Of a stretch of DNA of 64,000 nt, positions 9,151 through 22,606 are shown one piece after another. A model generated the notes under the pieces. It was not told the DNA's origin, did not search any database, and was given only the letters and a program-made list of their open reading frames with translations. A program made the position numbers and the translations under genes. Numbering within the stretch: position 1 is the first letter of the stretch; every line of letters begins with the position of its first letter. Source of the DNA: Kordia jejudonensis (GTDB lineage: Bacteria > Bacteroidota > Bacteroidia > Flavobacteriales > Flavobacteriaceae); assembly GCF_001005315.1 (NCBI RefSeq), contig NZ_LBMG01000010.1:62001-126000 (forward strand), read 5' to 3'.

Positions 9151-9441
9151 ATGAAAAAAATGAAAAAATTAAACCTAAACAAAGTGCGTATTGTATCATT
9201 GAAAAACTTACAATCAATTCATGGAGGCTCAACTGTATGCAACCCAACGGGTCCTACTGATCCTACTGGTAGTTTACTTTGCACAGCTGAACCTACAATT
9301 GGTCCTGGCACCTGTCCTTCTACAGGACTTACCTACGGAGGAAATGATGGCGGAACTTTAGATGCGTGGTCAACTCAGCAAACGCAAACAACGCAAGACG
9401 TTAGTAAGGTATTAACAGAATGCGAATTGGCACCTATATAA
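9151..9441 (+). CDS. Class I lanthipeptide-like precursor peptide 1
   Basis: A 96-residue peptide starting at the ATG at 9151. The upstream in-frame extension to 9112 lacks any match in the paralogue and is not used. The leader, residues 1-26, has MKKMKKLNLNK, then IVSLKNL and IHGG, resembling Bacteroidota class I lanthipeptide/natural-product precursor leaders that end in a GG cleavage site. The 70-residue core is rich in Thr, Ser, Gly and Pro and has four cysteines. It shares TYGGNDGG and the tail VLTECELAP with the next gene. No LanB, LanC or protease gene is in the window, so modification must act in trans or not occur. Product class is inferred from the leader. Confidence 0.7.
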   Translation: MKKMKKLNLNKVRIVSLKNLQSIHGGSTVCNPTGPTDPTGSLLCTAEPTIGPGTCPSTGLTYGGNDGGTLDAWSTQQTQTTQDVSKVLTECELAPI

Positions 9442-13661: not shown

Positions 13662-14345
13662 TTATTGTACGTACTTATAGCCTACACCTTTTACAGTTTT
13701 AAAGTGGTTTTCGCCAATTTTTTCGCGTAGTTTTCTAATATGAACATCTATGGTTCGTCCACCTACAATGACTTCATTTCCCCAAACTTTATCTAAAATT
13801 TCTTCTCTTTTGAATACTTTACCTGGACGAGATGCTAATAATGAAAGTAGTTCGAATTCTTTTCTTGGTAGAATGATTTCGTTACCGTCTTTTACAATTT
13901 TATATTCTTCTCTATTGATTACAATATTACCAACCGTAAAAATCTGAGAACTTTCTTCTTCTCGCTTTAGTCTGCGCAACAATGCTTTTACTTTACTTAC
14001 CAATACTTTTGGCTTTATGGGCTTTGTAATGTAATCGTCTGCACCAGCATCAAACCCAGCAACTTGTGAGTAATCTTCTCCACGTGCCGTTAAAAATGTA
14101 ATGATAGTATTGGCAAGGTTTTTATCTTTTCGGATTGTTTCACACGCTTCAATTCCATCCATTTCTGGCATCATCACATCCATGATGATTAAGTGTGGTT
14201 TTACTTTTTTTGCTTTTGCAATAGCTTCCACACCATTTGCAGCTGTTGAGAGTTGATATCCTTCACTAGATAAATTATATCCAACAATTTCGAGTATATC
14301 TGGCTCATCATCAACCAATAATATTTTAATATCCTTTTTTTTCAT
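13662..14345 (-). CDS. PhoB/OmpR-family response regulator
   Basis: 227 residues from the ATG at 14345. The receiver domain has the acidic VDDEP pocket, phospho-acceptor D56 (IIMDVMMPEMDG) and K108 (YITKPIKP). A C-terminal winged helix (about 130-226) has the recognition region VGGRTIDVHIRKLREKI. A longer frame to 14393 adds a poor extension and is not preferred. It forms a two-component system with the kinase immediately downstream. It is transcribed divergently from the TonB receptor gene whose promoter carries 11-bp-phased NTAACA repeats, the kind of site OmpR/PhoB-family dimers bind in tandem. Confidence 0.88.
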   Translation of the reverse strand: MKKKDIKILLVDDEPDILEIVGYNLSSEGYQLSTAANGVEAIAKAKKVKPHLIIMDVMMPEMDGIEACETIRKDKNLANTIITFLTARGEDYSQVAGFDAGADDYITKPIKPKVLVSKVKALLRRLKREEESSQIFTVGNIVINREEYKIVKDGNEIILPRKEFELLSLLASRPGKVFKREEILDKVWGNEVIVGGRTIDVHIRKLREKIGENHFKTVKGVGYKYVQ

Positions 14346-14470
14346 TTGCGTGTTGTTTCGATTTAAGTAGTTGATTTTGTTTTTATTAAACAATAGCTAT
14401 GCACTATTTCAGCACTTCAAAAGTAAAGATAAAATTAAAAACTGAAAGCAGTTAACACTCATTTAATATC

Positions 14471-14548
14471 ATAACATTAAGCTAACATACATATTACAAA
14501 GTTTTAACCTGCAAGTAACACCATCTTTACACGCTGCACATTTCTTTG
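14471..14548 (+). promoter_or_regulatory. Pho-box-like array of six 11-bp-phased repeats plus -7 element
   Basis: Six hexamers start exactly 11 bp apart at 14471, 14482, 14493, 14504, 14515 and 14526: ATAACA, CTAACA, ATTACA, TTAACC, GTAACA and TTTACA. All fit NT(A/T)AC(A/C), close to the Bacillus PhoP repeat TT(A/T/C)A(C/T)A, which also has an 11-bp period. Nine bp after the last repeat lies TTTCTTTG (14541-14548), a 7/8 match to the Bacteroidota -7 element, while no TTG -33 box is seen. This is the expected layout of an activator-dependent promoter for the TonB receptor starting at 14571. Confidence 0.6.
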
Positions 14549-14570
14549 CACTGTGAAACAAAAACACAAG

Positions 14571-17411
14571 ATGAAACAAAAAATTACAGTTACGATTCTC
14601 CTATTAATTACTTGCTTTGTAGGATTTGCACAAAACGGTTCTATTGCCGGAAAGGTGCAAGATAAAGAAGTTAATAATGATCCTTTACCATTTGCCAATG
14701 TTTCTATTAAAGGAACAACAAAAGGAACAACTTCTGATTTTGATGGTTTATACCAAATTACAAACGTTGAGCCAGGAACTTATACTTTAGTATTTAGTTT
14801 TGTGGGATACGAAACAAGAGAAGTTCCGAATGTAATTGTGAATCCTGGAAAAATTACAACAGTAGATATTATTTTGGGTGCAAATGCTGCCAGCTTAGAC
14901 GCCGTTGTTATTACCGCAACTACACGTAAAGTGTCTGAAGCGGCATTATTATTAGAACAAAAAAAGGCAGTTGATATTGTACAAAGCATTGGTGCTGAGG
15001 AATTAGCCAAAAAAGGTGTGAGTGATGCTGCAGGAGCTGTTTCTAAGATATCTGGTGTTTCCAAACAAGAAGGATCGAGCAATGTATATGTACGTGGATT
15101 GGGCGATCGATATTTAAATACAACATTTAATGGATTGCCGTTACCATCAAACGATATCAACAAAAAGAATATTGAGTTGGGTTTATTTGCTTCTGATGTT
15201 ATTGAAAATGTTTCGATTAGTAAAGCATATTCTTCAAAACAATATGGAGATTTTGCCGCAGGTAATGTAAATATCAATTCAAAAGAATATAAAGGAAAAG
15301 GATACATTGAAGCTTTTAGCGGAACAAGTATCAATACAAATGCAATTGGTAAAAACTTCGTAGTGAGTGAAGGTTCAGGATTTTTCGGAGATTATGCAAG
15401 ACATAACCAAAATCCTTTTGCTGTTATTTTATCTCACGGAGTTGATCCAGAAGATGTAAGCGCGCCAATTGATGTAAACTTTGGAATTTCTGGTGGAAAA
15501 TCGTGGGATTTTGAAAATGGTGCACGTTTAAGCTTCTTCGGAACGGCTTCTTTTGAAAATGGATATGAATATAGAAGAGGAGAAGCAACCGATTTTACAA
15601 CTGTGGAAAAGAAAACATTTGAAGATGCTGAAGAGTACGAATATAGTACGACAACAACTGCAATGGCAACGTTAAATTATAAAATTGACGATGCTAATAA
15701 ATTAAAATTCACCTCTTTATTTATCAACAGTTCTACAAATGAAGTGGGATACTTCGGAATTGATGGAAATGGTAGAGATAGAGACGCAATTTTGAATACG
15801 GATGAAGGTTTCTATCAAATGAACGCACAGTTTGACCAAAACCAAGTGTATGTAAATCAATTGATGGGTAACCACAAATCAGGAAAATTTGAATTGGATT
15901 GGGCTGCAGGATATAATGTAGTATATGCAAAACAACCAGATCGTAGACGTATTACGGTTGAAAACTATCAATTTGCTTTGGATAGTGATCCAACGACGAA
16001 TCCTACATTTTTTAGCAACGTAGATTATGACAACCAACGTTATTTTCAAGATATTGACGATACAGAATTCAACGGACGTTTAAACTTAACGTACGATGTA
16101 AATGAAAACTTCAAACTCTATTTTGGCTACAACGGAAGAAGTAAAGAGCGTAACTTTGAAAACATTCGTTATGGGTACGACATTATAGATTCTGATTTCC
16201 CAGTAGATGTAAATAATTTAGATGCAGTATTTACACCTGCAAACTTAAACTTAACTAGTGGAGGAATTTACGAAATCAAAGTAATTAACACCTTCCCAGG
16301 ATTGAGCAATACTAACCGACCTGGAAGTGCTGAAAACACATACACAGGAAACCTAGACTTATTTGCAGGATATGCAAATGCTGAAATTAAAGTTGGCGAA
16401 AAGTGGTTATTTGTTCCTGGACTTCGCGTAGAATCGTTTGACCAAAGTATTGCATATGATGTAATTAACTTAGGAAACAACGGAAATGCAACTGCTAGTG
16501 CCTACGAAAACTTCTTCTTACCAAGTTTAAATATTCGTTACGCACTGACAGAAGAGCAAAACTTACGTTTATCAGCAAGTAGAACAGTTTCACTACCAGA
16601 ATTTAAAGAAACTGCACCGTTTGTATACATTGATGTAACCAACAGAATTGGTGGTAACCCTGACTTATTAGGATCAAGCAATCCAAACTTTATCAATGTA
16701 TCAGATGTTGCCTATTCTAACGTGCTAAACTTCGACTTAAAATATGAGTGGTTTTTTGGAAAAGGAGAAATCTTCTCGCTATCCGCTTTCGCAAAACAAA
16801 TCTCAGATCCATTAAACCGAGTAGTTGCGTTTGATGCTACAGGAACACAGCGTTATTTCCGTACAGGAGAAAAAGCAGATGTTTTTGGTGTTGAACTTGA
16901 AGTAAGAAAAAATCTTTTAGAAAATGCAGATGAAGAAACGGTACTTTCGGCAGGATTGAATGCTACATTTATGCACACAGAACAAGATTTATACGATGTA
17001 ATTCAAGGAACATATAGTGTAAACTTTAGAAACAGCACAGAACAATTACAAGGAGCTTCACCATTTATTATGAATGCTGATATAAGCTACTCGCCTGAAC
17101 TTTCTGGTAACTACAAACCAACAGGAAACCTAGTTTTCTCATACTTTGCTGACCGAATTGACGCTTTAGGATCTGGACAGTTAGGAAACATCATTGAAAA
17201 ATCGGTTCCTACCTTAGATTTCATCATGAGAAATGAAATAACAGAAGACTTCGAAATCAACTTTAGCATCAGAAACTTACTAAATCCTGACATAAAATAC
17301 ATCCGTGAAACTACAGGTGGAGACGTTTTAGTAACTTCTACTAACGGAAAAGGAGTTTCAGGATACGACAGAGGAAGAAACTTTGGATTACAACTAAAAT
17401 ATAAATTTTAA
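14571..17411 (+). CDS. TonB-dependent outer-membrane receptor with carboxypeptidase-regulatory domain
   Basis: 946 residues from the ATG at 14571; a GTG at 14553 would add six residues and is less likely. A signal peptide (ITVTILLLITCFVGFAQ) is followed by a carboxypeptidase-D-regulatory-like beta domain (about 25-110, GKVQDKEVNNDPLPFANVSIKGT...VGYETRE), a plug domain (about 130-240, with GVSKQEGSSNVYVRGLGDRYLNTTFNG) and a beta-barrel ending in aromatic LQLKYKF. It imports an unknown ligand across the outer membrane using TonB energy. The Pho-box-like promoter and the adjacent PhoB/PhoR-like pair suggest phosphate-linked induction. A lipoprotein gene follows after 38 bp. Confidence 0.88.
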   Translation: MKQKITVTILLLITCFVGFAQNGSIAGKVQDKEVNNDPLPFANVSIKGTTKGTTSDFDGLYQITNVEPGTYTLVFSFVGYETREVPNVIVNPGKITTVDIILGANAASLDAVVITATTRKVSEAALLLEQKKAVDIVQSIGAEELAKKGVSDAAGAVSKISGVSKQEGSSNVYVRGLGDRYLNTTFNGLPLPSNDINKKNIELGLFASDVIENVSISKAYSSKQYGDFAAGNVNINSKEYKGKGYIEAFSGTSINTNAIGKNFVVSEGSGFFGDYARHNQNPFAVILSHGVDPEDVSAPIDVNFGISGGKSWDFENGARLSFFGTASFENGYEYRRGEATDFTTVEKKTFEDAEEYEYSTTTTAMATLNYKIDDANKLKFTSLFINSSTNEVGYFGIDGNGRDRDAILNTDEGFYQMNAQFDQNQVYVNQLMGNHKSGKFELDWAAGYNVVYAKQPDRRRITVENYQFALDSDPTTNPTFFSNVDYDNQRYFQDIDDTEFNGRLNLTYDVNENFKLYFGYNGRSKERNFENIRYGYDIIDSDFPVDVNNLDAVFTPANLNLTSGGIYEIKVINTFPGLSNTNRPGSAENTYTGNLDLFAGYANAEIKVGEKWLFVPGLRVESFDQSIAYDVINLGNNGNATASAYENFFLPSLNIRYALTEEQNLRLSASRTVSLPEFKETAPFVYIDVTNRIGGNPDLLGSSNPNFINVSDVAYSNVLNFDLKYEWFFGKGEIFSLSAFAKQISDPLNRVVAFDATGTQRYFRTGEKADVFGVELEVRKNLLENADEETVLSAGLNATFMHTEQDLYDVIQGTYSVNFRNSTEQLQGASPFIMNADISYSPELSGNYKPTGNLVFSYFADRIDALGSGQLGNIIEKSVPTLDFIMRNEITEDFEINFSIRNLLNPDIKYIRETTGGDVLVTSTNGKGVSGYDRGRNFGLQLKYKF

Positions 17412-17449: not shown

Positions 17450-18649
17450 ATGAAAAATCGCATACTATTTGGATTCGCACTTTTAGGAGCATTAGTTATG
17501 ACTTCTTGTGCATCAGACGACACTGCTGATATCAACATTACTGATAATAGTGTTGTAAACAATACGACAAACCCAGGAACTCCAACTACTGGAAATACAA
17601 TTTTCTTATCAGGAACATATACAGAAGATTTAGACTTAGACGCAAATAACAACTACAAAGTAAACGGATCATTAATCATGGCTGCTGGAAGTACATTACG
17701 TGTACCTGCTGGTATGACAGTTGAGGCTTTAGCTGCTGGATCTGACGTGTATATTGCAATTTCACAAGGAGCCAAAATAGAAGCTATTGGTACGGCTGAC
17801 AATCCAATCGTATTTACTTCTGATGCTTCTGCACCAGCTGCTGGAGATTGGGGAGGATTAATTATCTTAGGTAGTGCGCCAATCAACTCTGTATCAGGTA
17901 ATGCTACAGCAACTTCTGAAATCGCAAGTTTACCTTACGGTGGAACTGACGCAACTGACAACTCTGGAAGCTTACGTTATGTGCGTGTTCAGTATTCTGG
18001 TGGATCGGCTGACGGACAATCAGAAAACAATGGAATCTCTTTCTACGGAGTAGGAAACGGAACAACTGTTGAGTACGTTCAAGTATTTGAAGGAAAAGAT
18101 GATGGAATCGAATTTTTTGGTGGAACAGTAAACGTTAGTTATGCTTCTGTAGTAAATGCTCAGGATGATTCAATTGACTGGACAGAAGGTTACACAGGAA
18201 CAATTACAGATGCATACGTAAAGCACGGAGCAGATCATGACAAAGGAATAGAAGCTGACGGATTTAACACAGATATCGGAAACAACTCAAACCCAATTTA
18301 CTTCTCTAATCCTACAATAAACAACCTTACAATTATTGGTTTAGGATCTGCAACAAGTAGCGAAGCTATTCGTTTAAGAGCTGGTACTAGAGCTACATTC
18401 ACAAATGTTCTATTAGAAGGATATGGAGAAGGTTTTGACTTAGATGGAAACGATACAGATAGCCCAACAGGTGTTGGTGTAACAAGTGGTGCAACTACAG
18501 TTACAGATATCTTATTTACAGACATTACATTAAAAGTAAAAAATGATACAGGAGTAATGTTTAATGATGCTGATTGGATTTCAGGAGACGGGAACGGAAC
18601 AGGAACTGACTATGCTACTTGGGGAGCTGGTTGGACAGTAGGAAACTAA
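17450..18649 (+). CDS. Lipoprotein with beta-helix-like repeats
   Basis: 399 residues. The signal peptide ends in a lipobox (LVMTSCASDD, Cys about 20), so it is lipid-anchored in the envelope. After a linker comes a Gly/Asn/Asp-rich region with repeated short beta-strand patterns (GSLIMAAGSTLRVPAGMTVEA, KIEAIGTADNPIVFTSD, GDWGGLIILG), suggesting a right-handed parallel beta-helix. It follows the TonB receptor by 38 bp and ends at a strong terminator, so it is probably an outer-membrane partner of that receptor. No enzymatic motif is recognised. Confidence 0.75.
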   Translation: MKNRILFGFALLGALVMTSCASDDTADINITDNSVVNNTTNPGTPTTGNTIFLSGTYTEDLDLDANNNYKVNGSLIMAAGSTLRVPAGMTVEALAAGSDVYIAISQGAKIEAIGTADNPIVFTSDASAPAAGDWGGLIILGSAPINSVSGNATATSEIASLPYGGTDATDNSGSLRYVRVQYSGGSADGQSENNGISFYGVGNGTTVEYVQVFEGKDDGIEFFGGTVNVSYASVVNAQDDSIDWTEGYTGTITDAYVKHGADHDKGIEADGFNTDIGNNSNPIYFSNPTINNLTIIGLGSATSSEAIRLRAGTRATFTNVLLEGYGEGFDLDGNDTDSPTGVGVTSGATTVTDILFTDITLKVKNDTGVMFNDADWISGDGNGTGTDYATWGAGWTVGN

Positions 18650-18825: not shown

Positions 18826-20652
18826 ATGATTAAAAATTACTTTTTATTAGTTGCATTATTGATTTCTTCTGTGTCTTTTGCACAAGTATTAGAAGAAAAT
18901 TTCGATTATGGAATGACAAATGGAGACTTGACTACAGCTAGTGGAGGCGCATGGGCGCAACACTCAGGTTCAGCTGATCCTGTACAGTATGTAGCAACAC
19001 CAAGTTTGACAATGGCAGGCTATCCTTCATCAGGAATAGGAGGACATGCATCAGTTTCTGGAACTTCTCAAGATGTAAACAGATCTTTTGCAGGTATTTC
19101 ATCTGGAACAGTATATGGAAGTGCGCTAGTAAACTTAAGTGCTGTAGGTACTGGAAACTACTTTTTACACTTTAATATTGCTGGTGGTTTTACTTCAAGA
19201 GTTGGAGCAAGAGATGATGGAAGTGGTGGTGTACAATTCGGTATTGAAACGGATAGTTCTACTTTAATCTACGGAACAACATCATACGCTTTAAATACGA
19301 CATACCTTTTAGTATTCTCTTATGAGGTTTCTACAGGAGTATCTAACTTACACGTTTTATCGGCAGTAACGCCTACAGAACCTGCAACGCCTGAAGCTAC
19401 AAATACTGGAGCTACTGGAAGAACAATTAGTGCGATTGCTGTTCGTCAATCAAGTAACATCCCTACTTTTCTTATGGATGGTGTTCGTGTAGCGACAAGC
19501 TGGAACGAAATTATGAACAACTCTACTACAGCTTCTGTAAGTATTGTAACTCCTGCTAATAACGCTGTTTTTGATCCAGGAACAAGCAGTGTTGATATTA
19601 CATTTACAACACAAAACATCGATTTATCAGTTGCTGGAAACCAAGTAAATGTAACTGTTGATGCAAACCCAACTGATGCTGATGTATCAAGTCCTTATGC
19701 AATTCCTACAACAGACGGAGGAATATATGGTGTAACTGTTGAATTGTTAGAAAACAATGTTGTAGTTGACACTAAAATGGTAGCATTTTCTGTATCAAAC
19801 ATTACACAAGTAAATAATATCACTGATTTACGTGCTGGAACATTAGGTGGTTTTTATGAACTAACTGGTGAAGCGTTAATCTCTTACATCGTAACAGAAG
19901 GAACAAGAAATCAAAAATACATTCAAGATAGTGGTGCAGGAATCTTAATAGATGATACCGCTGGAACTTTAAGTGCTCCTTTAAACATCGGAGACGGAGT
20001 TATTGGTTTACAAGGTGAATTATCTCAATTTGGTGGTGTATTACAATTTGTACCAACAGCTAACGTACCTGGAGCATCAACTACTGGAAACACGATTACT
20101 CCAATTGATGTCACTGTTGCCGAATTATTAGCAAACGGAGAAACATACGAAAGTAGATTAATCAGATTGGTAGATGTAACTTTTGATGCTGCTGATGTTG
20201 GTGGAATGTTTGCAGATAACACAAACTATGACGTTACTGTAGTTGGTGGTGCAGACATGACTGTATGTAGAGTTTCTTTTGGAGATGAAGACATCGTTAT
20301 GGCTACAATTCCTAATACACATGTAAACATTACTGGTTTAGGTGGAGAATTCAACGGAACGCGTCAAGTATTACCAAGATACGCAAGTGACATTGAAGAT
20401 GCTTTAAGCACAGAAGAGTTTGGAAGAGCTTCTTTTAGCATGTATCCAAATCCAGCTAACGGAAATACTGTAACCATCGCTTCTGCTACAAACAGCACAA
20501 AAGAAGTGAAAGTTTACAGCATTATCGGAAAACAAGTAATCAACACTACAATTACAAACACATTAAATATTGCTGATTTACAATCAGGAGTATATGTAGT
20601 TCAAATTACAGAAAATGGTAAATCGGCTACTAAGAAATTAGTGATCAAGTAA
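18826..20652 (+). CDS. Secreted DUF5689-like protein with T9SS sorting domain
   Basis: 608 residues. A signal peptide (MIKNYFLLVALLISSVSFAQ) leads to an N-terminal beta-sandwich-like region (about 20-230), an Ig-like segment (VSIVTPANNAVFDPGTS, about 240-330) and an OB-fold/DUF5689-like region (ITDLRAGTLGGFYELTGE...IQDSGAGILIDD...IGDGVIGLQGELSQFGG, about 335-530). A C-terminal type IX sorting domain starts near 540 (FSMYPNPANGNTV...GKQVIN). It is exported to the cell surface or medium. The region order recalls secreted proteins that accompany extracellular nucleases or phosphatases, but no catalytic motif is visible. It is transcribed separately from the upstream operon. Confidence 0.75.
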   Translation: MIKNYFLLVALLISSVSFAQVLEENFDYGMTNGDLTTASGGAWAQHSGSADPVQYVATPSLTMAGYPSSGIGGHASVSGTSQDVNRSFAGISSGTVYGSALVNLSAVGTGNYFLHFNIAGGFTSRVGARDDGSGGVQFGIETDSSTLIYGTTSYALNTTYLLVFSYEVSTGVSNLHVLSAVTPTEPATPEATNTGATGRTISAIAVRQSSNIPTFLMDGVRVATSWNEIMNNSTTASVSIVTPANNAVFDPGTSSVDITFTTQNIDLSVAGNQVNVTVDANPTDADVSSPYAIPTTDGGIYGVTVELLENNVVVDTKMVAFSVSNITQVNNITDLRAGTLGGFYELTGEALISYIVTEGTRNQKYIQDSGAGILIDDTAGTLSAPLNIGDGVIGLQGELSQFGGVLQFVPTANVPGASTTGNTITPIDVTVAELLANGETYESRLIRLVDVTFDAADVGGMFADNTNYDVTVVGGADMTVCRVSFGDEDIVMATIPNTHVNITGLGGEFNGTRQVLPRYASDIEDALSTEEFGRASFSMYPNPANGNTVTIASATNSTKEVKVYSIIGKQVINTTITNTLNIADLQSGVYVVQITENGKSATKKLVIK

Positions 20653-20819: not shown

Positions 20820-21887
20820 ATGAAACTATGGAAAAAAATAAACCAATATGCTAGCAAACGAGACATTCTCTTATTTCTAGGTTTCTATGTCGTTTCTACC
20901 TTAATCTATTATACTGCAAGTTGGATTTCGTGGGGCGGATTCAAAAAAGGACATCCATCCTATTTTGATATAGAAGAATTTTTTGCTTCTGGTGGCGCTC
21001 AGTTTTTAATTAGCTTATTGGTTACAATTCCTATTTGGTACATCACTTCTGTTGTCTTAAGAAAATACAAGCTGAAAATACAACTGTTATCACACTTTCT
21101 ATTTTTACCAATATACATAGCAACATGCTACTTTTCATTGCTTGGCGTCACAAAAATTTTTGGTTGGGCAATGTATTGGGGAGGCTACAAAGTCATTTGG
21201 ACACTCTATACGTTTATGCTTTTTTACTTTGTACAATTTGGCTTCATACACGCGTATAGCTATTTCAAACGATTCAAAAAAGAAGAACAGGAAAAAGCGA
21301 TACTCCGAGAAATCACATTAAAAAGTGAAATCACAGCATTAAAATCACAACTCAATCCACATTTCTTACACAACCTGTTCAACTCTATCAATGCAACGAT
21401 TCCAAAAGAAAACGAACGAACCAGAGAACTCATCATCCAATTATCGGATCTTTTTAGATATCAAAATTATGCATCTCAAAACGAATTTGTAACCATTCAA
21501 GAAGAAATAGAATTTATACAAAGCTATTTAGAGCTCATGCAAATAAGACTCAAAGAACGTCTCAATTTCTCTTTTGAAGTACAAAAGGAAGTCTATCATC
21601 ATAAAATTGTACCGATGCTACTACAACCTTTAGTCGAAAACGCAGTAAATCACGGTATTGCTTCCAAAATTGAGCCTTCAACATTAATCATCAAAATTGA
21701 AAAACAACAAGAACGTCTCAACATTTCCATTGAAGATACAGGCATTGGTATTGCAGATAAAAAAAATATTTTTGACAAAGGATTAGGACTGTCGAATACA
21801 AAAATGAGACTCGATAAAATTTACAATGCCGAATTAAAAATAGAAGACAACATTCCTACAGGAACTAAAATCTCATTTACAATTTGA
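20820..21887 (+). CDS. LytS/YehU-family sensor histidine kinase
   Basis: 355 residues. Four transmembrane helices occupy roughly residues 15-145, followed by a short coiled coil and the His_kinase domain with H181 in SQLNPHFLHNLFNSIN. A degenerate ATPase domain has PLVENAVNHGI and a C-terminal DTGIGI. There is no periplasmic domain of note. It is coupled by a 4-bp overlap to the LytTR-type response regulator, so the two form a two-component system. The signal is unknown. Confidence 0.88.
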   Translation: MKLWKKINQYASKRDILLFLGFYVVSTLIYYTASWISWGGFKKGHPSYFDIEEFFASGGAQFLISLLVTIPIWYITSVVLRKYKLKIQLLSHFLFLPIYIATCYFSLLGVTKIFGWAMYWGGYKVIWTLYTFMLFYFVQFGFIHAYSYFKRFKKEEQEKAILREITLKSEITALKSQLNPHFLHNLFNSINATIPKENERTRELIIQLSDLFRYQNYASQNEFVTIQEEIEFIQSYLELMQIRLKERLNFSFEVQKEVYHHKIVPMLLQPLVENAVNHGIASKIEPSTLIIKIEKQQERLNISIEDTGIGIADKKNIFDKGLGLSNTKMRLDKIYNAELKIEDNIPTGTKISFTI

Positions 21888-22606
21888 AAACAATACTTAT
21901 CATAGATGATGAAGAAGATGCTAGAAATTTACTCCGCCAATACATTTCTGCATACAAAGAACTTCTGATTATCGGAGAAGCCTCAAATGGTTATGAAGCC
22001 GTTGAGTTGATAAACAAATTAAAACCTGACACCATATTTCTAGACATCCAAATGCCAGGTTTCAATGGATTTGAAGTACTTACGCACTTAAAAGAAATTC
22101 CCGAAGTCATATTTTCTACCGCTTATGATCAGTATGCAATAAAAGCATTTGAAGTACACGCCATTGATTATTTATTAAAACCGTATGGAAAAAAACGCTT
22201 TGAAAGCGCACTTCACAGAATTCTTAAAAATCAAGAAAATGTCATTCCATTAGCCGAAGAATTACTTCAAAAAGAAGCCCATTTTCCTTCCAAAGTGATT
22301 CTTCACAAAGGAACAAGAAAACTCATGATCCCCGTAAAGGATTTATATTATGCAGAAGCTTTTGGCGATTATACCAAAGTATTTACCAAAAATGAAGAAT
22401 TTCTAGCCACCAAAGGAATTTCTCAACTTAAAAACAGCTTCAATCCAAATACCTTTATACGCTTGCACCGTTCGCATTTTGTCAATATAAATACGATTGT
22501 AGAATTAAAAAAAGTAGATCGATATCATTACGTATATTTAACTAATGGAAAACAGCTGAGAGTAAGTGAAACCTATCTGCCTGAACTCAAAAAATTGGTA
22601 GTATAA
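21884..22606 (+). CDS. LytTR-family response regulator (TTG start)
   Basis: 240 residues. The receiver domain has phospho-acceptor D54 (IFLDIQMPGFNG) and lysine in YLLKPYGKK. The C-terminal LytTR DNA-binding domain (about 140-238) has FIRLHRSHFVNI near its end. Translation must begin at the TTG at 21884, which overlaps the kinase stop codon TGA (TTGA): a stop codon lies upstream in frame at 21866 and no ATG intervenes. Target genes are unknown; the YwqK/PD40 gene begins 91 bp downstream. Confidence 0.87.
   Translation: MKTILIIDDEEDARNLLRQYISAYKELLIIGEASNGYEAVELINKLKPDTIFLDIQMPGFNGFEVLTHLKEIPEVIFSTAYDQYAIKAFEVHAIDYLLKPYGKKRFESALHRILKNQENVIPLAEELLQKEAHFPSKVILHKGTRKLMIPVKDLYYAEAFGDYTKVFTKNEEFLATKGISQLKNSFNPNTFIRLHRSHFVNINTIVELKKVDRYHYVYLTNGKQLRVSETYLPELKKLVV

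Follow-up and report, generated by a model that had tools for sequence, protein, structure and literature searches.

A phased six-slot array before a TonB receptor operon of Kordia jejudonensis as a probable Pho operator of Flavobacteriaceae

Introduction

Bacteroidota are major degraders of organic matter. In Escherichia coli, a bound PhoB dimer replaces the -33-type element and touches the sigma factor, and the PhoP box of Bacillus subtilis is built of ACA-type hexamers, rich in T, that recur every 11 bp. For PhoB/PhoP operators in general, direct repeats of 11 nt are described (PMC4415409; here and below, the articles cited are represented by their accessible passages).

In Flavobacterium johnsoniae, phosphate depletion induces the TonB receptor Fjoh_0545 (8.02), the lipoprotein Fjoh_0546 (FII; 9.91) and PhoB, Fjoh_0544 (3.06; values of the FC column, read as log2), as well as the glycosyltransferase of the same phoBR locus and, at another locus, PlcP (8.59), while PhoR (0.76) and OprP (Fjoh_0542; -1.3) are not induced (PMC8115612). 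The low-phosphate loci are tightly repressed under nitrogen and iron limitation, and the authors relate the lipoproteins FI and FII to Caulobacter ElpS (PMC8115612); the terms "promoter", "motif" and "Pho box" do not occur in the text of that article. PhoP of Riemerella anatipestifer, reported as raised by phosphate starvation, has the DAP-seq core TTTAACA and binds its own promoter and moxR, which it is reported to activate, among 583 binding sites that do not form a phosphate-centred set (PMC9603813). PhoB of Bacteroides fragilis binds the pst promoter in an EMSA with a 512-bp fragment (PMC3547664), and the plcP clusters of marine bacteria have predicted Pho boxes (PMC4796936), with no box sequence seen in the accessible passages of either article. 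PhoB, PhoR, Pho box and TonB are all absent from the text of PMC8812569. The motif of Riemerella PhoP was the only sequence of a Pho operator in Bacteroidota that came to light in the open-licence literature searched.

Here we describe a phased array of half-sites in front of a TonB-dependent receptor gene of Kordia jejudonensis, within a window of 64,000 nucleotides, the whole stretch of DNA analysed (Table 1), and compare it with the promoters of relatives.

The array and its promoter

Six NTWACM hexamers start at intervals of 11 bp between 14471 and 14526 and are followed, after 9 bp, by TTTCTTTG, which we take to be a -7 element of the TAnnTTTG type. This anatomy, given in a preliminary description made from the letters of the sequence, is confirmed; the six-fold phased pattern has one match in the window and none in 100 dinucleotide-preserving shuffles. 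No -33 element was seen in the array promoter; slots 5 and 6 occupy its place. The receptor most likely starts at the ATG at 14571, 22 nt 3' of the TTTG, rather than at the GTG at 14553 of the open reading frame list. The extra, off-register TTAACA is also present in eight Kordia loci (L006-L013), and a motif distance of 19 bp has 9 counts against 1.2 in shuffles among the TWACM pairs of 71 receptor promoters.

The three-fold version of the pattern has four matches in the window, all within the array, against 0.02 expected. In the whole 5.36-Mb host genome it has five matches, four of them in the array, against 11 for the reversed control; since the control is commoner, three hexamers alone mean little, and the case is made by six in register together with their conservation. 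The remaining match, on contig C68 (L005, 1501-1527), has its three hexamers in phase on the minus strand and lies between two divergently read genes, with no phosphate link seen; it was set aside because of this position and the commoner control. A reduced pattern, TAAC-N7-TWAC-N14-TTTG, was dropped as non-specific, with five places in the host genome against seven for its control.

Table 1. Positions in the window of the array, its promoter and the neighbouring genes
Feature	Position	Strand	Remark
Glycosyltransferase, PF04101	11526..12641	+	Pfam family shared with Fjoh_0541 in the phoBR locus of F. johnsoniae (PMC8115612)
PhoR-like histidine kinase, 347 aa	12615..13658	-	PF00512 + PF02518
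OmpR/PhoB-family response regulator, 227 aa, proposed array binder	13662..14345	-	PF00072 + PF00486
TATCTTTAC, possible -7 element of regulator promoter	14423..14431	-	seen by eye in many of 30 regulator upstream regions
Extra TTAACA, possible auxiliary half-site	14452..14457	+	off register, 19 bp 5' of slot 1
Slot 1 half-site ATAACA	14471..14476	+	TAAC start 73 bp 5' of TTTG
Slot 2 half-site CTAACA	14482..14487	+	62 bp 5' of TTTG
Slot 3 half-site ATTACA	14493..14498	+	51 bp 5' of TTTG
Slot 4 half-site TTAACC	14504..14509	+	40 bp 5' of TTTG
Slot 5 half-site GTAACA	14515..14520	+	29 bp 5' of TTTG; near -33 element position
Slot 6 half-site TTTACA	14526..14531	+	TTAC start 18 bp 5' of TTTG
-7 element TTTCTTTG	14541..14548	+	TTTG at fixed distance in aligned relatives
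TonB-dependent receptor, 946 aa	14571..17411	+	PF13715 (CarbopepD_reg), PF07715 plug, PF00593 barrel
Lipoprotein, 399 aa, receptor partner	17450..18649	+	model consistent with beta-helix
T9SS-secreted DUF5689 protein	18826..20652	+	near receptor only in Kordia loci L006-L013 and L084

Conservation in receptor promoters

The best 80 of 87 stretches encoding receptor relatives were kept, the closest receptors (82-88% identical) being those of L006-L013, all labelled Kordia. The period was determined in 71 promoters, without the host and L006-L013 and including L070, which also carries a Kordia label; L080 has no upstream DNA and was omitted from promoter counts. In these 71 promoters the distances between TWACM pairs peak only at 11, 22, 33, 44 and 55 bp, with 106, 44, 59, 82 and 46 counts, respectively, against about 1 each in 100 shuffles, and a distance of 66 bp shows no excess (2 counts). 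The array has a limit of six half-sites. In the alignment of the same promoters, which was built to fit the array, the consensus is TAAC in slots 1, 2 and 5, TAAY in slot 4 (TAAC or TAAT in individual relatives) and TTAC in slot 6, with TTTGC at a fixed distance. The letters of TAAC are kept at 90-95% in slot 1 and at 98-100% in slot 5, and the -7 element has TTT at 100% and G at 95%; slot 3 is the weakest in relatives (TnAY), TAAC being found at distance 51 only twice in 70 receptor promoters.

A count anchored on TTTG, and hence independent of the slot alignment, finds at least three of the six T[AT]AC slots in 73 of 80 promoters (the host and 79 loci) and all six in 12, and twenty sets of mononucleotide shuffles never rose above two on-grid slots. 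Absence of the phased repeats from orthologous receptors, named beforehand as grounds for giving up the Pho-box reading, is therefore not what these promoters show. Fewer than three slots are found in L024, L026, L053, L060, L063, L081 and L084; in L024, L026 and L081 the start of the receptor is farther 3', with on-grid motifs of its own. The receptor start lies 427-687 bp past the match start in L024-L026, L071, L076, L078 and L081, where the region scored is not the nearest promoter of the receptor. On the grid of TTTG minus 18+11n, TAAC-to-TTTG[CT] distances number 208 in 70 receptor promoters, against a mean of 0.78 per off-grid distance; in this and all later grid counts a sum over six on-grid distances is set against the mean of a single off-grid distance.

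The sequence is AT-rich, helically phased and adjoins a promoter, so that the repeats could also be read as bent DNA or as an UP-like element working without a dedicated activator. Conservation, however, lies mainly in the TAAC tetramers, with much of the spacers variable in the 71-promoter alignment; together with the lack of an excess at 66 bp this agrees better with a series of half-sites for a protein than with curvature at large, and bending by itself is a highly improbable explanation.

The divergent regulator and kinase

The regulator has the receiver and winged-helix output domains expected of PhoB. Its 212.7 bits stay below the cut-offs of the PhoB equivalogs TIGR02154 and NF053854 (296.2 and 270), yet these are its top two models. 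The best NCBIfam models of the kinase are PnpS, WalK and PhoR, all below cut-off (for PhoR, 232.5 against 334.2 with TIGR02966 and 155.8 against 500 with NF053855). That a PhoB/PhoR-like pair lies divergent from the receptor, as stated in the preliminary description, holds at the host locus but is not general: among the 76 loci whose upstream DNA is long enough, 11 have the pair in this place, namely those of eight Kordia (L006-L013), Joostella, Allomuricauda and Profundicola. The array travels with the receptor and the pair is linked to it in only these 11 loci, which places the array in the receptor operon, where it would be reached mostly in trans; the idea that it is part of the promoter of the divergent regulator was rejected because the array accompanies the receptor.

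This loose linkage bears on the identity of the binder, as an OmpR-family response regulator other than the divergent one might occupy the array. Most receptor arrays lie apart from the gene of the divergent regulator, each genome holds 2-68 regulator-like candidates, and the Riemerella PhoP motif is reported to resemble the ArcA motif of E. coli (PMC9603813). On the other hand, 57 of 60 family genomes have a single match at E<=1e-75, an orthologue of the divergent regulator, which is thus near universal, and PhoB of F. johnsoniae is itself induced (PMC8115612). Moreover, in 30 regulator loci, host included, on-grid TAAC motifs facing the divergent gene number 35 (0.48 per off-grid distance) against 1 facing the regulator, the divergent gene being variable and a receptor homologue in 6 of the 30, the host among them. 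A different regulator is therefore improbable, and we infer that the divergent regulator would be the binder.

In L257-L259, L265-L267, L275, L277, L278, L280 and L282-L284, spread over many genera, the gene divergent from the phoB-like regulator encodes a secreted protein of only about 83-114 aa that carries a T9SS-like sorting tail (by eye).

The receptor operon and its neighbourhood

The receptor scores 161.8 bits against TIGR01782, below the cut-off of 310. The lipoprotein adjoins it in 78 of 80 loci, the two exceptions (L056, L085) being contigs that end in the receptor. No SusD-family lipoprotein, by which SusCD/PusCD pairs are recognised, adjoins the receptor, and the lipoprotein has no Pfam match at E<=0.001. 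Its structure model is mostly beta (mean pLDDT 85.6) and matches beta-helix proteins weakly, among them tailspikes, polygalacturonases and pectate lyases, with one match at E<=0.001; from these model features, the lipoprotein might bind a polymer at the surface or cleave it. The receptor may take up a larger phosphorus substrate, as proposed in the preliminary description.

Further along the window, 3' of the receptor operon, a histidine kinase (PF06580) and a LytTR response regulator form a pair at 20820-22606. A small open reading frame at 9154-9438 has a GG-type leader, with a weak match to the rSAM-modified RiPP leader model TIGR04149 (17.3 bits against a cut-off of 25).

Phosphate genes in relatives and the host

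A sequence-only model, R1, was built from 69 receptor arrays, leaving out L060, L069, L070, L071, L076, L078, L084 and duplicates. In the host genome it finds only the receptor array (E=7.7e-17; next match E=0.19) and no second strong array. In the PlcP promoter of the host, a single TAAC is on grid, whichever of two TTTG is taken as the anchor. Searches of the host genome found neither PstS nor PhoX, and no OprP at E<=1e-40; plant-associated Bacteroidota are reported to be without the Pst phosphate transporter (PMC8115612), and the host genome, too, seems to be without it.

Among six named relatives, five of the ten best non-receptor matches of the model (E 3e-4 to 0.02) lie before phosphate genes, encoding a PlcP-type phosphoesterase (L117), OprP-type porins (L120, L123), a PiT phosphate transporter (L135) and an EndA-type nuclease (L125); the other five (L118, L119, L121, L124, L129) do not, as judged by position and by eye. 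In L125 (1-1551) the match is directly 5' of the nuclease gene, whose three Pfam domains (PF04231 + PF00932 + PF00041) are those of the low-phosphate nucleases Fjoh_4721 and Fjoh_4723 of F. johnsoniae (PMC8115612).

PlcP, named from its Pfam family alone (PF12850/PF00149), matched in 31 and OprP in 36 of 60 family genomes, and the grid was counted in 30 loci each, with PiT taken from 23 readable OprP loci. On-grid TAAC motifs number 36 for PlcP (0.26 per off-grid distance; n=30), 37 for OprP (0.36; n=30) and 28 for PiT (0.12; n=23), with slots 1-2, slot 6 and slots 4-5 preferred, respectively; because these genes were chosen after the model had matched a member, the counts are confirmations across genomes and not an unbiased draw. 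The control, 222 other promoter regions in the loci, is not clean, with 35 on-grid motifs against 0.69 per off-grid distance; the ten control regions with at least two on-grid motifs are seven receptor starts, two porin-like genes (by eye) and one PstS.

The preliminary description had called for a search for the array before pst, phoX and TonB genes; for PstS the outcome is mixed. Elsewhere in the phylum, four phased motifs stand before PstS in two of 28 regions (L209, L212) and pairs in five, and 21 regions have no phased pair; on-grid motifs number 8 over six distances in the 28 regions, against 0.32 per off-grid distance. PhoX-domain genes give 14 against 0.30 (19 regions, three of them, L240-L242, with almost no upstream DNA). 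Both counts omit the truncated L206, L221, L231, L235 and L238, as well as L252 and L253. In relatives the element thus precedes several phosphate genes, as expected of a Pho box: PlcP, OprP and PiT, and PstS in three genomes.

Census of strict arrays

A strict pattern, TAAC(0), TAAC(11), TAAC(44), TTTG(73), occurs at 95 places in 70 of 120 family genomes, and its reversed control at 4. At the 94 places outside the host the open frame that follows was identified: 62 are receptor homologues (13 of them only 118-128 aa, the N-terminal part), 19 belong to the beta-helix lipoprotein family and 2 are PstS, together 83 of 94, and the rest are six GKDG-type lipoproteins, three MoxR-like proteins (two scanned), one T9SS protein and one place without a frame. 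Since the pattern was derived from the receptor promoter, receptors are expected, and the other clients were not built in. Four of the GKDG-type lipoproteins were assessed; L292, L316 and L329 (the same gene as L254) are above the PhoX cut-off and L320 is not. In 296 genomes of the phylum the pattern has 22 places in 21 genomes against 2 for the control, 3 of them repeating the family census; outside the family there are 10 places among 266 genomes against 1. Receptor homologues follow at 18 of the 22 (nine of them only 24-37% identical) and PstS at 2, and 2 (L396, L398) are without assignment.

The census brought to light several further arrangements. Genes of 118-128 aa that resemble only the N-terminal part of the receptor, each with its own strict array, were seen in L289, L307, L319 (with a CarbopepD_reg domain), L321, L324, L326, L327, L353, L357, L361, L365, L371, L374 and L380, and many of these genomes have a second strict array about 600-750 bp on, before a full receptor or a beta-helix lipoprotein. 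L359 has, behind a strict array, a lipoprotein that is at least 744 aa long and matches the profile of the beta-helix lipoproteins twice. A closely similar on-grid TTAAC array precedes a moxR-like gene in three genomes (L315, by eye, L318 and L328).

The same regulator might bind the array in answer to a wider or different signal, such as envelope or oxygen stress, with phosphate as one input. For Riemerella PhoP, whose core is TTTAACA, direct control of moxR and of the Bat aerotolerance genes is reported (PMC9603813), and 3 of the 94 strict arrays precede moxR-like genes. Against this stand the 83 of 94 before receptor homologues, the lipoprotein family or PstS, the grid common to PlcP, OprP and PiT, and the tight repression of the low-phosphate loci of F. 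johnsoniae under nitrogen and iron limitation (PMC8115612). A signal wider than phosphate starvation, or different from it, is unlikely.

Proposed mechanism

Conservation of the promoter, the common grid at phosphate genes and the induction of the F. johnsoniae locus (PMC8115612) support the Pho-type operator put forward in the preliminary description. The anatomy of the array, its period and limit and the fixed 18 bp from slot 6 to TTTG are seen in the sequences themselves, and the grid is shared by unrelated phosphate genes of relatives. Judged by sequence comparison, the array is a real conserved element and very probably the Pho operator of Flavobacteriaceae and, less often in its strict form, of other Bacteroidota.

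With high confidence, we propose that its six half-sites would serve three tandem dimers of the divergent regulator, bound head-to-tail on TAAC or TTAC cores, one core per 11 bp. In phosphate starvation the kinase would phosphorylate the regulator, and the phosphorylated dimers would tile one face of the DNA. With slots 5 and 6 at the -33 position and no -33 element seen, the last dimer probably replaces that element; it would cover the missing place, probably touch the sigma factor and recruit RNA polymerase to the -7 TTTG at the fixed 18 bp. The TonB receptor and the surface lipoprotein would thereby be switched on in this strain, and a phosphorus source would be taken up or mobilised.

On balance we also favour, with less assurance, a single Pho-operator syntax across Bacteroidota, in which TAAC-type half-sites at TTTG minus 18+11n would take PhoB dimers in tandem, three at most, in place of the -33 element, and in which not Pst but a TonB receptor, together with a beta-helix lipoprotein like ElpS, would be the core client; the Pho regulon of uncharacterised Bacteroidota could then be read from sequence. 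With a rule of this kind, tied to a fixed promoter register, phosphate regulons would become predictable in many genomes. The receptor-lipoprotein pair is the commonest client of the operator in the genomes surveyed, and the register of the operator offers a direct test of how a PhoB-type activator acts at the -7/-33 promoters of Bacteroidota.

Comparison with known systems

The preliminary description had likened the array to the PhoP box of B. subtilis. The 11-bp period agrees, but it is general for PhoB/PhoP operators (PMC4415409), whereas the strict hexamer TT(A/T/C)A(C/T)A, in the wording of that description, fits only TTTACA, one of the six, the other five deviating at position 1 or 6 (by eye); the promoter type differs as well. 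The Pho box of E. coli PhoB resembles the array in its direct repeats of 11 nt (7 conserved and 4 less so), in head-to-tail binding and in the sensor/regulator pair, and differs in its core, CTGTCAT, against TAAC/TTAC in an array of six half-sites registered to the -7 TTTG of Bacteroidota (PMC4415409).

Riemerella PhoP is a flavobacterial regulator and, by description, its core TTTAACA resembles the half-sites, while an 11-bp array and a -7 register were not found in the accessible passages (PMC9603813). Caulobacter ElpS is described as a surface lipoprotein of phosphate starvation that is found together with a TonB receptor, as here; the receptor, Cc0171, is reported as constitutive, in contrast to the induction proposed for this operon (PMC2996285). 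The phoBR locus of F. johnsoniae (PUSIV), also compared by description, brings together a glycosyltransferase, PhoR, PhoB, a TonB receptor and a pectin-lyase-fold lipoprotein as in the host, although its receptor, unlike that of K. jejudonensis, is listed with a PF14905 barrel (PMC8115612). Pho boxes of 11-nt direct repeats were already known; what the array adds, as far as the literature was searched, is its six-slot core sequence, its register to the -7 element of Bacteroidota and its receptor-lipoprotein client.
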